Shown: positions 7,430-39,625 of the stretch, piece by piece
Position numbering within the stretch: the first letter of the stretch is position 1
Layout of the letters: every line of letters begins with the position of its first letter
NCBI GenBank assembly: GCA_028702535.1
Contig: JAQVOR010000015.1
Location: 1,361 to 41,105 of the forward strand
DNA length: 39,745 nt
Direction: 5' to 3'
Source of the DNA: Bacteroidales bacterium
GTDB lineage: Bacteria > Bacteroidota > Bacteroidia > Bacteroidales > ML635J-15
Position numbers and translations under genes: made by a program
The notes under the pieces: generated by a model
Database searches by the model: none
What the model was told of the DNA's origin: nothing
What the model saw: only the letters and a program-made list of their open reading frames with translations

Positions 7430-7520
7430 CTTTAATAAATTAGACCTATTCTAATCAGATTTATCTGACTGGAAAATACATACTTAAACAAGTGGCTTTA
7501 GCCACATTTGTTATTTCATT
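7430..7520 (+). repeat. ~90-bp direct repeat copy A
   Basis: ctattctaatcagatttatctgactg...tacttaaacaagtggctttagccacattt, also at 7990-8082. Confidence 0.8.
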
Positions 7521-7617
7521 TTGATAATTCAAATTTCTGACCGCTCACTCGGATTGAGCTTAGAAATCGAAATACACTTGAATATTTAGGTATTTGGGAA
7601 CGCATTCATAATCCAGA

Positions 7618-7989: not shown

Positions 7990-8082
7990 AAAACTATAAA
8001 TTAAATCTATTCTAATCAGATTTATCTGACTGCTAAACAAATACTTAAACAAGTGGCTTTAGCCACATTTATTATTCCATTC
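7990..8082 (+). repeat. ~90-bp direct repeat copy B
   Basis: Near-identical to 7430-7520, including the gtggctttagccac hairpin. Confidence 0.8.
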
Positions 8083-8136
8083 CGCTCACCCAAATCTACA
8101 ATCCGAGTGTCGTCAATTAATTATTAAAATATTTCA

Positions 8137-25229: not shown

Positions 25230-26555
25230 ATGAAATACTTAAAAATTGTTTTAGTGATTATGTTGTTTTTTTCTGTTTCTATGCAAGCACAAGAGACAAC
25301 AGAAAAAGCAGAAAATGTTAAAACTGGGTGGAACTTTGGTCTATTACCAGTTGTGTCGTACAATTCTGACCTCGGTTTCCAATATGGAGTGCTAACCAAT
25401 TTCTACAATTATGGTGATGGATCGAATTTTCCAAAATATATGCATTCACTTTATGCAGAAGTTAGCCGTTACACCAAAGGTTCTGGTATTTATCGGGTTT
25501 TTTATGACTCTGAATTTTTAGTTCCTAAAATTAGATTGACGGCAGATTTATCTTATTTGCCCGATCAGGCTTTAGATTTTTATGGTTTTAATGGATATGA
25601 TGCGGTTTATGATTCTGATTTTAGCGATGATGAATCTTTATATTACAAAACAAGAATGTTTTACAAGCATAAAAGAAATATTTTACGGTTTAAACTCGAT
25701 TTTCAGGGCAAAACTCCAGTAAAAAATCTTAATTGGGCAGTTGGATATAATTTTATGGATATTCAGATTGGAGCTGTGCCTATTGATAAATTAAACCAGG
25801 GTAAAGATTCTGCCGATATGCTTCCTAGTGTAAATAGTTTGTATGATAATTATATTGAATGGGGAATAATAAAACCCGAAGAGGCTACAGGAGCAATGCA
25901 CAACAGTCTTAAACTTGGTTTGGTTTATGACACTCGTGATAATGAGCCTTGTCCAATGAAAGGTCTTTGGTCTGAGTTGGTGTTGTTTAATAGTTTTAGT
26001 TCAGATTTTACATTTGGAAAATTAGCAGCAACACATCGTCAATATTTTACAATAGTCGATAAACAGTTGTCATTTGCATATCGCATTGGTTATCAGGGGA
26101 TTGTTTACGGTGACGCTCCGTTTTATTTATTGCCATATATGATTTATTCTTACATGCCTTCGTCAACTGTTGATGGATTAGGTGGAAGCAAATCGGTGAG
26201 AGGTATGATAAGAAATAGAACAGTTGGCAAAGGAAACGCTTTTGCAAATCTTGAATTTAGATACAAATTTGTAAGATTCCGCTTTATAAAACAAAATTGG
26301 TATGCTGCATTAAATCCTTTTCTTGATGCCGGAATGGTTGTGCAAAAAATAGATATAGATAAATCAAATATTCCGAACGATGTATTTCAGGCACAATATT
26401 TTGCTACTAATACAGAAACTGTTCATTTAACTTACGGTTGTGGACTGCATTTAGCGATGAACGAAAATTTTGTTATTGCAGCAGATATTGGATTACCTGT
26501 TAAAGCTGCCGACGGTAAAATGGGTGTTTATATTGGAATGAACTGGTTGTTTTAA
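25230..26555 (+). CDS. BamA/TamA-family outer membrane beta-barrel protein
   Basis: Signal peptide, LVYDTRDNEPCPMKGLWSEL, GGSKSVRGMIRNRTVGKGNAFANLEFRYKF. Confidence 0.8.
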   Translation: MKYLKIVLVIMLFFSVSMQAQETTEKAENVKTGWNFGLLPVVSYNSDLGFQYGVLTNFYNYGDGSNFPKYMHSLYAEVSRYTKGSGIYRVFYDSEFLVPKIRLTADLSYLPDQALDFYGFNGYDAVYDSDFSDDESLYYKTRMFYKHKRNILRFKLDFQGKTPVKNLNWAVGYNFMDIQIGAVPIDKLNQGKDSADMLPSVNSLYDNYIEWGIIKPEEATGAMHNSLKLGLVYDTRDNEPCPMKGLWSELVLFNSFSSDFTFGKLAATHRQYFTIVDKQLSFAYRIGYQGIVYGDAPFYLLPYMIYSYMPSSTVDGLGGSKSVRGMIRNRTVGKGNAFANLEFRYKFVRFRFIKQNWYAALNPFLDAGMVVQKIDIDKSNIPNDVFQAQYFATNTETVHLTYGCGLHLAMNENFVIAADIGLPVKAADGKMGVYIGMNWLF

Positions 26556-26700
26556 AACTGTTTTCAGTTCACGGCGGATTTGTACAAAAAGAATCATATA
26601 CCGTGGTCTTTTATTGTGTTTCATTCAATTTACACAAATTTAAAGTTGTTTACAGTACACGAATAATTTTTAATCGTAAACAAATAATCGTGAAATGTTA
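26556..26700 (+). repeat. dispersed 3'-flanking repeat, copy 1 (unexpanded heptad)
   Basis: ttttcagttcacggcggatttgtacaaaaagaatcatata...aaagttgtttacagtacacgaata; homologous to 37460-37640. Confidence 0.7.
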
Positions 26701-26904
26701 ATCTGTTCGTCTGCGATGCAGTACATCGCATTCAAACAAATGAACTTTAGAACTGCAAACCGAACTAAAGATATAATTTAAATAATTTACTATTTGTTTA
26801 ATTTATAATCCCTTCCCATACCCAGTTTTTCCTCAAAATTTAGGCTTGCCTGCTGGTACAACACCACCAGTTTTATCAGTACGAAATTTTGTTCTTACTC
26901 CTAT

Positions 26905-27006: not shown

Positions 27007-27044
27007 AAAAAAAGCCGGCTACTAATTAGTAATCGGCTTTTTAC
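27007..27044. terminator. bidirectional-type terminator downstream of the serA-like gene
   Basis: aaaaagccggctactaattagtaatcggctttttA, A tract on the left and T tract on the right. Confidence 0.7.
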
Positions 27045-30259: not shown

Positions 30260-30348
30260 AAAAAAAGTTTATTTATATATATAAGCTATAAGGACGGTAA
30301 AATATTGATTGGGTTGTTTTATTTTTTAGCATTACTTTAAGATTTCGA

Positions 30349-30446
30349 CCGACTTGTGCTGAGCTTGCCAGCACTGCGATGCACTGCGATGCACTGAGCC
30401 TGCCGAAGTGAGCCTGCCGAAGTGAGCAACGCCGAAGTGTCGAAGT
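30349..30446. repeat. modular tandem/dispersed repeat cluster
   Basis: gcactgcgat x2, gagcctgccgaagt x2, gagcaacgccgaagtgtcgaagt. Confidence 0.75.
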
Positions 30447-30507
30447 AAGGGAAAAATCTCATTACTGTATAATCCAAGTTTAATAATTAGCAGATAAAAA
30501 AAATAAG

Positions 30508-35508: not shown

Positions 35509-36792
35509 ATGTTGTTAAAGATACGTTTGAACATACTGTTTTTTGTATTTTTAAGTTTTTCGGTTTTAAGTACTGCTCAAAATAAGGAAAAAACTTATGA
35601 TAGAATAGAAATTCTTACATCGCCCGATTATCATGGCAGAGGTTATGTTAAAGATGGTTGTGGAAAAGCTGCTGATTATCTTGCTGGCGAAATGCAAAAT
35701 ATTGAATTAAAATATTTTAGTGAGAATTATTTCCAGAAATTTGAGTTTAATGTTAATACTTTTCCAAATAAATTATCTGTAAAATTAGATAAACAAAAAT
35801 TGGAACCAGGTGTAGATTATCTGATTGGCCCTGCTACTCCAAGTATAAATCAAACTTATCAGCTTTATCTTCCCGATTCTGTTTTATTAAATGATACAAC
35901 GGCATTTAAAAAATTGTTAAAATCTAATGATTTTAGCAATAAAATGTTGGTTGTCGATTATGCTGAGACCGAAAACATAGAAATAAAGAAATTCTACATC
36001 AATATTATGTTAAGAAATACTGCTTTTGGAGGCATTGTGGAGCTTATTCCTGATGAACTAATGTGGGCAGTTCGTACTTTTCAGCAAGATTTTCCAGTAG
36101 TAAAAATTAAACGAGAGGCATATAATCGAGATGCCAAAGAATTAAAACTTAATGTAAAAACAAAATTCATTGAAAACTTTGAAGCAAAAAATGTAATTGG
36201 ATATGTAGAAGGTAAAAATACAGATGAATTTATTGTATTTTCGGCTCATTATGATCATCTTGGACGTATGGGTAAAAAGGTCTATATTCCTGGTGCTCAA
36301 GATAATGCAAGCGGAACCGCAATGTTGTTAGATATCGCCGAATATTATATGGAAAATCAGCCAGAACGTTCTGTCGTTTTTATGCTGTTTGCTGGAGAAG
36401 AGGCTGGATTGCTTGGCTCAATAAACTATGTTTTAAACCCATTATTTGACTTGTCTAAAATTAAAATGGTAATAAATCTTGATTTGGTTGGTACAGGAGA
36501 CGATGGAATTACTGTCGTAAATGGTGCTAATCCTGATTATTCTGCAATTTGGGATAAAATAGAACAATTAAATATTGAGAATGAATATTTCACTACCATA
36601 AAAGCACGTGGCGAAGCTGCGAATAGCGATCATTATCCTTTTCATGCTGTTGGAATTCCTGCAATTTTTATTTATACAATGGGAGGTCAAACTTATTATC
36701 ATAACCCAAAGGATAAATTAGAAACACTTACTTTTACAGGCTATGATGCACTTTTTAAACTTTTATTAAATTTTGTCGAAGAATATGAGTAA
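35509..36792 (+). CDS. M28 family zinc peptidase
   Basis: Signal peptide; FSAHYDHLG, PGAQDNASGTAMLLDIAEY, LFAGEEAGLLGS, NSDHYPFHAVGIPAIFIY. Confidence 0.92.
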   Translation: MLLKIRLNILFFVFLSFSVLSTAQNKEKTYDRIEILTSPDYHGRGYVKDGCGKAADYLAGEMQNIELKYFSENYFQKFEFNVNTFPNKLSVKLDKQKLEPGVDYLIGPATPSINQTYQLYLPDSVLLNDTTAFKKLLKSNDFSNKMLVVDYAETENIEIKKFYINIMLRNTAFGGIVELIPDELMWAVRTFQQDFPVVKIKREAYNRDAKELKLNVKTKFIENFEAKNVIGYVEGKNTDEFIVFSAHYDHLGRMGKKVYIPGAQDNASGTAMLLDIAEYYMENQPERSVVFMLFAGEEAGLLGSINYVLNPLFDLSKIKMVINLDLVGTGDDGITVVNGANPDYSAIWDKIEQLNIENEYFTTIKARGEAANSDHYPFHAVGIPAIFIYTMGGQTYYHNPKDKLETLTFTGYDALFKLLLNFVEEYE

Positions 36793-37459
36793 ACTTTATC
36801 TTGTTCCAACACCAATCGGTAATCTCGAAGATATGACTTTGAGAGCTATCAGAATTTTGAAAGAAGTTGATTATATTCTTGCCGAAGATACACGAACTTC
36901 TGGTTTTTTACTCAAGCATTTTGAAATAGAAACCAAGATGTATAGCCATCATAAATTTAATGAACATAAAGCTGTCGAACATATTGCAGATAAAATTAAA
37001 AACGGAGAATCTTATGCTTTAATATCTGATGCTGGAACACCATCAATATCTGATCCCGGGTTTTTATTGGTAAAAACTTGTATCGAAATGGGAGTAGAGA
37101 TTGAATGTTTGCCAGGAGCAACAGCATTTGTTCCAGCTTTAGCCGTTTCGGGATTACCATCCGACAGATTTTGTTTTGAGGGATTTATACCTCACAAAAA
37201 AGGCCGAAATAAAAAAGTTCAAGCATTAATTGATGAGGAGCGAACAATGATATTTTATGAATCGCCATACAGATTATTGAAGTCTCTGGAATTGTTTATC
37301 GAATACTTTGGTAAAGATAGAAAAGCATCAGTTTCAAGAGAAATTTCAAAATTATACGAAGAAAACGTCCGAGGAACACTACAAGAATTACATGCTCATT
37401 TTAGTACAAAAACTATTAAAGGTGAAATTGTAATTGTAGTTGGTGGAAAAAACGGTTAA
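36785..37459 (+). CDS. rsmI: 16S rRNA (cytidine(1402)-2'-O)-methyltransferase
   Basis: MSKLYLVPTPIGNLEDMTLRAIRILKEVDYILAEDTRTSG, ALISDAGTPSISDPGFLLV, GATAFVPALAVSGLP; ATG 36785 overlaps the M28 stop. Confidence 0.96.
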   Translation: MSKLYLVPTPIGNLEDMTLRAIRILKEVDYILAEDTRTSGFLLKHFEIETKMYSHHKFNEHKAVEHIADKIKNGESYALISDAGTPSISDPGFLLVKTCIEMGVEIECLPGATAFVPALAVSGLPSDRFCFEGFIPHKKGRNKKVQALIDEERTMIFYESPYRLLKSLELFIEYFGKDRKASVSREISKLYEENVRGTLQELHAHFSTKTIKGEIVIVVGGKNG

Positions 37460-37469
37460 AGTGTTTTCT

Positions 37470-37532
37470 GTTCACGGTTCACGGTTCACGGTTCACGGTT
37501 CTCTGTTCTCTGTTCTCTGTTCTCTGTTCACA
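37470..37532 (+). repeat. heptanucleotide tandem array (GTTCACG)4(GTTCTCT)4GTTCACA
   Basis: Nine consecutive 7-mers read directly. Confidence 0.97.
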
Positions 37533-37625
37533 TCGGATTTGTACAAAATGAATCATATTCCTTGTTTATTTATTAGATCTGCAAAAATTTAGAGTTGTTC
37601 AGAGTACATGTATTATTCAGATAAT

Positions 37626-37639
37626 AGTGAACAGTGAAC
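37626..37639 (-). repeat. heptad repeat (AGTGAAC)2 = (GTTCACT)2 on minus strand
   Basis: agtgaacagtgaac. Confidence 0.85.
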
Positions 37640-37703
37640 TGTTCCTCGTGTTCTTTGTGGTTTTCTCTTTGTGTCCACTTCGATAAAAACTCACTTTGAC
37701 AAG

Positions 37704-38134: not shown

Positions 38135-39526
38135 ATGAAAAAAAGTCTGTTTTATAGGTGGCTAATTTTTTTGTGTTTTTTCGGGATTGCTGCTATCTAT
38201 TTTTCATATTCTCACTCTATTTCGCCCTTGAAAAACAACGTGTTTTGTTGTTATGATACAATTTATCATAATTATGATACAAGTTTTTATCAACCTCCCC
38301 CCGAATATAAGCCTAAACCAATTGCAAGCTTAAGTTTGGAAGAATTGTGGTCATATTATTTGATAAATCCTTGCTATTTACCTCTAATTAAAGATTCTGC
38401 ATTATGGGAACCAGGTAAAAACATTGGTTTTGATTATGCTGATTTATTCAACGACTCGCTGCCTTTTGACCATAATTACAGAAATAGGTATTTGGTTGGA
38501 GATTTTAATGTTATTGATAGGAATGGAAATTCAAATCCGCTACAAGAAATTTATCCTCATATTAAAAACTTGCTGGAGTTTAATAGCACACCAATTAATA
38601 TTTTAAGACGACTTGATTCCTTAAAATATGGCACCAAAGCTTATGACTCGGTGTTATTAGAAATAGATACTGTTATGAGTGCAGAATCTGCAAGTATATT
38701 TAAGAATTTTCTTTTGAAAGTCTGGAGTTATAAAATGTTGCCGATTTCACGTGATTATTCTTTTTATTGGAGTTCGCTGTTTTCTGCTGGACAGTATGTC
38801 GTTTTGTGTGAGGCTTGCGAAGATACTTTAGTTATGATTGGAAAGTTCGCAACATCGGCAAAACGTTTAAATATTGGGCATCGTACAAATGAGGCAGAAC
38901 TTATTTCGGAATATTATTACACAGATTTGCCTATTGGAAGATACAGGAATTATTATGCTGGTCTTAATACTATTAGCTCTAAACACTGGGAATATGGCCG
39001 CTTTTACAATCAATTAGATAAACAACGAGATGAGGAACTTGGTGGCGGGCATAACCGGATTGTGATGTATCGTAATAAAGTAGAACTTTCAAACTTTATG
39101 CTTTTAGTACCACATCCCGATTATCCTAAAGCTATGAAAAACAACGGAATACACGAAGTCGCTCTTAGCGATGTAGCCAGAGGAATGCTTGGTACTGCAA
39201 ATAGTGTAGGGTGTTTGAGAGTATCCGATTTTGCTGCAAAATTTATAAGATGGTGGACACCCCAAGATTGTAAGCTATTTATCGCTTATAATGATACATG
39301 CTATGATAATCAAATTAATTATGAAGGAAATATCCTCGATTATTTGCCTTTTAAAAACGAAGAAGAAGGACTTGCTTTTCGAAAGTGGATTAACACTTTT
39401 TATCCATTTTATGCAAAAATACTTGAAATTGACGAAGAAGGCAGTTATCGAAATGGATATGTTATAGACGGATATTATCACTTTAAAGATGAGTATGATA
39501 AATATCTGATAGGCAAGTCATTATAG
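38135..39526 (+). CDS. L,D-transpeptidase (YkuD-like) with extended N-terminal region, membrane-anchored or secreted
   Basis: NNGIHEVALSDVARGMLGTANSVGCLRVSDFAAKFI resembles H-x(n)-S-x-G-C-x-R; N-terminal hydrophobic helix. Confidence 0.7.
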   Translation: MKKSLFYRWLIFLCFFGIAAIYFSYSHSISPLKNNVFCCYDTIYHNYDTSFYQPPPEYKPKPIASLSLEELWSYYLINPCYLPLIKDSALWEPGKNIGFDYADLFNDSLPFDHNYRNRYLVGDFNVIDRNGNSNPLQEIYPHIKNLLEFNSTPINILRRLDSLKYGTKAYDSVLLEIDTVMSAESASIFKNFLLKVWSYKMLPISRDYSFYWSSLFSAGQYVVLCEACEDTLVMIGKFATSAKRLNIGHRTNEAELISEYYYTDLPIGRYRNYYAGLNTISSKHWEYGRFYNQLDKQRDEELGGGHNRIVMYRNKVELSNFMLLVPHPDYPKAMKNNGIHEVALSDVARGMLGTANSVGCLRVSDFAAKFIRWWTPQDCKLFIAYNDTCYDNQINYEGNILDYLPFKNEEEGLAFRKWINTFYPFYAKILEIDEEGSYRNGYVIDGYYHFKDEYDKYLIGKSL

Positions 39527-39548: not shown

Positions 39549-39625
39549 GTTCCGAGTTCCGAGTTCCGAGTTCCGAGTTCCGAGTTCCGAGTTCCGAGTT
39601 CCGAGTTCCGAGTTCCGAGTTCCAT
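39549..39625 (+). repeat. heptanucleotide tandem array (GTTCCGA)10 + GTTCCAT
   Basis: Ten perfect consecutive 7-mers, then one variant. Confidence 0.97.

Follow-up and report, generated by a model that had tools for sequence, protein, structure and literature searches.

A two-copy spacer repeat and a class of post-stop heptad arrays in a Bacteroidales genome

Two intergenic regions in the window (the whole stretch of 39,745 nucleotides that was analysed) contain copies of a repeat located downstream of a stop codon, and in the second copy a tandem array of heptads is found at the left edge. A preliminary description of this DNA had seen in them one mobile or structured element of the 3´ UTR, whose edge seeds heptad expansion. 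Here, two separate phenomena had been merged, a two-copy core and a class of heptads. Probably, the two-copy repeat goes back to a 3´ spacer that was duplicated locally long ago and is decaying neutrally, combined in copy 2 with the expansion by slippage of a heptad located after the stop codon. The features are listed in Table 1.

Table 1. Genes, repeat copies, heptad arrays and predicted terminator in the window.
Feature	Coordinates	Strand	Location and details	Basis
Omp85-superfamily (BamA-like) gene	25230..26555	+	precedes copy 1; stop TAA at 26553-26555	PF01103, E 2.8e-11
Copy 1 of the two-copy repeat	26558..26711	+	3 bp past the Omp85/BamA-like stop	alignment to copy 2; ORF end at 26555
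Predicted bidirectional intrinsic-terminator hairpin	27009..27042	.	in the spacer where the BamA-like gene and the D-2-hydroxyacid dehydrogenase gene converge	
rsmI-like gene (TP_methylase)	36773..37459	+	precedes copy 2; stop at 37457-37459	PF00590, E 4.9e-33
Heptad array GTTTTCT (GTTCACG)4 (GTTCTCT)4 GTTCAC	37463..37532	+	sense, 3-11 bp past the rsmI stop	TRF, lag-7 scan, orientation table
Copy 2 of the two-copy repeat	37517..37647	+		alignment to copy 1
Heptad array (GTTCCGA)10.7	39549..39623	+	sense, 22 bp past the stop of the gene at 38135-39526; without core	TRF, lag-7 scan

The presence of homologous sequences after the BamA-like gene and after rsmI had been described before and was confirmed. 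In the best local alignment the two intervals share about 74% identity with a score of 94, compared with a maximum of 35 among 300 dinucleotide shuffles, and BLASTN with each copy against the whole genome gave E-values of 2.8e-13 and 3.4e-11. The alignment is interrupted by one gap of 10 bp and several smaller ones; despite the moderate overall identity, identical blocks of 15 and 9 bp are retained in the core. This core comprises about 110 bp, and the copies are located 11 kb apart on one contig in direct orientation. Both are found 3´ of stop codons, copy 2 (counted with its heptads from 37463) starting 3-11 bp past the end of rsmI, and both are opened by a GTTTTCW GTTCACG unit. At the left end of copy 1, GTTTTCA GTTCACG (about two heptads) is followed by the core, starting with CGGATTTGTACAAAAAGAATCATAT. 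Copy 2 consists of the last two heptads of the array, the core starting with CGGATTTGTACAAAATGAATCATAT and the right end GTGAACAGTGAACTGTTC. The difference in heptad number that had been pointed out likewise stands: TRF calls GTTCACG/GTTCTCT with 8.9 units at 37470-37531, that is an array of about nine heptads in copy 2, and copy 1 is unexpanded.

How often the core occurs bears directly on the proposal that it is mobile. The preliminary description had suggested a profile search for multiple copies and had itself taken the finding of only two as evidence against its reading; exactly two were found. In the genome (an assembly of 3.49 Mb in 239 contigs), BLASTN with each copy returned only the other copy above noise, and a sequence-only covariance model built from the two sequences recovered them with E-values of 3e-34 and 6e-32, followed by a third match at E 0.09. 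A profile search of 198 relatives gave a best E-value per genome of 9.6e-4, which is the chance level over 198 genomes, and BLASTN against 393 genomes drawn from the order found nothing at E <= 1e-4. There was no BLASTN match to the core in plasmids; in phages the matches were short and chance-like (38 bp, 84%, E 0.03), and viral contigs did not contain an exact 25-mer of the repeat. The core is missing from the spacers that follow the orthologues of rsmI and of the Omp85 gene in about ten genomes of the same genus, so that orthologous sites without the core, as asked for earlier, do exist. This absence is no demonstration of mobility; the spacers of the relatives have diverged too far for a precise empty site or a target duplication to be delimited.

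The ends of the two copies give a similar picture. The inverted heptads said to bound each copy are present at the positions given, TTCACG at 26568 and CGTGAA at 26689 in copy 1, and CTGTTCAC at 37524 and GTGAACAG at 37627 in copy 2. However, chance accounts for the 6-mer pair of copy 1 (P 0.35), and the 8-bp pair at the core edges of copy 2 is marginal (P 0.04). The alignment places the two right-hand motifs at different, non-equivalent positions, and no terminal inverted repeat is conserved between the two copies. Inverted heptads flanking arrays were found at 1 of 17 arrays in a sample of the same genome, copy 2 being this single case, and they are present at some sites in the relatives G012 and G003.

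A MITE or another mobile intergenic element would therefore be an improbable source of the repeat, even though the intergenic position, the orthologous sites without core, the tandem array at one edge and the 8-bp inverted pair that encloses the copy 2 core would all suit it. There is also a precedent in the Bacteroidales, the MITE/minisatellite BrickBuilt of Porphyromonas gingivalis, which likewise is intergenic and places a tandem array beside non-repeat sequence (PMC4596501). BrickBuilt is present in 19 copies in one strain, has a unit of 23 nucleotides, ends in inverted repeats, which measure 12 bp in the best-preserved copy, and shows 4-bp target duplications at some sites (PMC4596501). 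In contrast, the repeat described here has two copies, a heptad unit and two inverted pairs that are not homologous to each other, no target-site duplication was recognised at either copy, and no autonomous partner was found in relatives or plasmids.

The second part of the earlier proposal, a structured element, is not supported either. Copy 1 does not fold better than its shuffled versions (z -0.84). Copy 2 reaches a z of -4.8, but this value drops to -1.53 without most of the heptad array, showing that the fold is mainly derived from the array. In a consensus structure, both partners differ between the copies in 3 of 25 pairs; in this comparison of two sequences, such counts also turn up in 49 of 500 shuffles. 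Neither copy has an Rfam match at the gathering threshold; below it, the best match of copy 2 has an E-value of 0.27, and the matches near copy 1 cover the terminator region only. It is very unlikely that the core is the remnant of a gene or of a structured RNA such as a riboswitch or an sRNA, duplicated at two gene ends. The pairs changed on both sides and a short reading frame shared by the two cores (LYKxNHIP) could be taken as traces of such an origin; the former are also reached by part of the shuffles, and the latter is shared only via near-identical DNA, contains one difference that alters a residue and shows no coding signature. The two-copy repeat is established neither as a MITE nor as a structured RNA.

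A repeat shared between spacers is not unusual in this genome. In a sample of 580 kb with 243 spacers of 60 bp or more, 100 have a repeat in common with another spacer, making up 184 pairs, and the best-match identities lie between 65 and 100%; these counts are indicative only, since heptad content guided part of the sampling and chance BLAST hits the other part. In addition, short dispersed motifs, such as those resembling CACTTCGATAAAAACTCA, link the spacers of both copies to other spacers. Because the spacers are so rich in shared repeats, a diverged two-copy repeat is ordinary here, and we class the pair as an ordinary case of spacer duplication.

Several other spacer repeats were observed in the window. 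A dispersed one of about 100 bp at 255-367 has, within the part of the genome that was sampled, at least 8 other copies with 79-91% identity. One spacer contains two direct copies of 100 nucleotides (7435-7534 and 7996-8095, 86% identity) with a GTGGCTTTAGCCAC palindrome, and more repeats are located between them. The repeat at 30347-30457 is rich in TGAGCCTGCCGAAG and GCACTGCGAT units and is found on at least 7 other sampled contigs with up to 98% identity.

The heptads form a class of their own. Among the intergenic tandem arrays of three same-genus genomes, 34 had a lag of 7, compared with 14 for lag 8, 2 for lag 6 and 1 for lag 9; all lags other than 7 and 8 gave at most 5 arrays each. The pattern GTTCWCN was matched 48 times in this genome and 45 times in its nearest relative, G010, compared with 0 to 5 times in each of 24 other same-genus genomes, and the reversed pattern, used as control, gave no matches. 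For 30 GTTCWCN arrays the nearest gene 3´ end could be assigned; 28 of these have the sense orientation and 2 the antisense one (binomial P 9e-7), using gene calls from heuristic ORFs and the nearer 3´ end where two flank an array. Arrays starting less than 25 bp from the stop codon are sense in 15 cases and antisense in none, and for less than 60 bp the ratio is 20:1. The loci in this genome and the nearest relative (L286, L300, L304, L310, L398, L399, L404, L406-L410, L370, L372 and the rsmI array of the window) are mostly independent of each other, since only two orthologous pairs were found among 20 array-bearing gene ends. Among the heptad families, the rule of sense orientation after the stop is strong only for GTTCWCN; the GATGACG and GAAGACG families are found in both orientations and can adjoin intrinsic terminators.

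With these data the idea that the edge of the core seeds heptad expansion has to be given up. Heptads follow many other genes that lack the core, and a profile search beside the other GTTCWCN arrays did not find it (the best matches, with 9.8 and 8.8 bits, owe their score mostly to the heptads). Arrays are found where there is no core, and in copy 1 the core stands without an array; the heptads are therefore not seeded by the core.

The regular placement of the GTTCWCN arrays could also point to a function. The sense arrays might be a lineage-specific signal for 3´ ends, acting in transcription termination or in the protection of mRNA 3´ ends, for example as rut-like sites with pyrimidines for loading of Rho or as sites for an RNA-binding protein; the core would then be a captured part of a 3´ UTR travelling with the array. 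The strict sense orientation close to the stop codon and the UC and WC steps contained in each sense unit would agree with this. In a crude scan, intrinsic terminators were present at 1-3 of 23 array-bearing gene ends and at 36 of 152 control ends, a depletion that is suggestive only, with a Fisher P of 0.05 to 0.42 depending on the treatment of two doubtful matches. However, rut sites are described as unstructured RNA, rich in C and poor in G, in which YC dimers are spaced by 9-13 nucleotides (PMC9160355), whereas the units found here have a period of 7 nucleotides and a C content equal to or slightly above that of G. Moreover, the GATGACG and GAAGACG families, which can lie near intrinsic terminators, contain no YC steps, and the arrays show no conservation between orthologous genes. 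Taken together, we regard such a signal as unlikely.

Heptads with a comparable location (GGGAATC and GGGGA(C/T)T) have been described in Xanthomonas, which has GGGAATC, and in Nostoc, which has related ones; they are intergenic, tandem, restricted to lineages and variable in length (Rehm et al. 2015, PMC4692102). At the 3´ side of genes they are mostly located less than 50 bp past the stop on the coding strand, with no function described; many occur as convergent inverted pairs and few between divergent genes (PMC4692102). The Xanthomonas repeats also have an antisense placement on the upstream side of genes. The GTTCWCN arrays share the sense placement downstream of the stop codon, and convergent inverted pairs are likewise found, here in G012 and G003. 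In contrast to the Xanthomonas and Nostoc heptads, the units GTTCWCN and GTTCCGA are not G-rich and lack the G-tracts required for G-quadruplexes (GTTCACG, GTTCTCG and GTTCCGA contain no tract of three G on either strand), the lineage is Bacteroidales, and many of the arrays have greater length and variety. We therefore file the GTTCWCN heptads as a new instance of tandem intergenic heptads with sense placement after the stop, outside the G4 subtype. Since the unit is not G-rich, formation of G-quadruplexes is not the common cause of this placement. The placement rule of the Xanthomonas G4 heptads thus recurs with a non-G4 heptad in Bacteroidales and is separable from G-quadruplex formation, which makes it testable whether post-stop heptads are generated by a mutational process acting where genes end, or have a role in 3´-end formation.

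Another heptad, TAACTGA, forms direct repeats in Beggiatoaceae, Cyanobacteria and some Bacteroidetes (MacGregor 2015, PMC4679880). Both repeats are intergenic direct repeats of heptads with a patchy distribution that includes Bacteroidetes; in the Guaymas Maribeggiatoa genome TAACTGA is mostly located just upstream of start codons (PMC4679880), whereas the GTTCWCN arrays come after stop codons.

A neutral duplication together with slippage, the reading that we prefer, would proceed as follows. The core would go back to an old duplication of a spacer at a gene end, and its two copies, having no function, would have decayed neutrally to the present identity. The GTTCACG/GTTCTCT heptads would belong to a lineage-specific class that arises right after stop codons in sense orientation, and their number would change by replication slippage, reaching about nine units in copy 2 and staying at about two in copy 1. 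Slippage at a period of 7 bp has been proposed as the cause of heptad abundance in work cited in PMC4679880 and PMC4692102, and following this proposal for heptads in general, expansion and contraction by slippage is most likely for the class described here. Two observations count against a neutral duplication: the shared start with GTTTTCW GTTCACG after the stop shows more regularity than a random duplication would call for, and an inverted pair lies at the core edges of copy 2. Since the two identical blocks persist, weak constraint on the core is possible, as far as two sequences can tell.

In several relatives (L210-L213, L218) an intrinsic terminator is located about 30-125 bp past the Omp85 stop, followed by the convergent D-2-hydroxyacid dehydrogenase gene. 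In the window the predicted terminator hairpin (-15.2 kcal/mol, z -4.8) lies about 450 bp from the stop. Compared with the short distance in the relatives, this spacer has grown, and copy 1 belongs to the added material.

In G012 (L211) and G003 (L212) the same spacer carries heptads after both convergent stops, both in sense orientation (GATGACG and GTCAGAG; GAAGACG). Because both stops carry sense heptads, the spacer forms a large inverted repeat around the intrinsic terminator. Heptads of further sequence were observed elsewhere. At L250 (G000:C149, 65-287) a TAAACCC/GAAACCC array has a unit shared with plant-type telomere repeats, a likeness that is probably a coincidence. Finally, one spacer (L302, G000:C138, 141-700) contains several adjacent heptad families (GTGATWC, GAATACC, GAGAACC), several of them in arrays.
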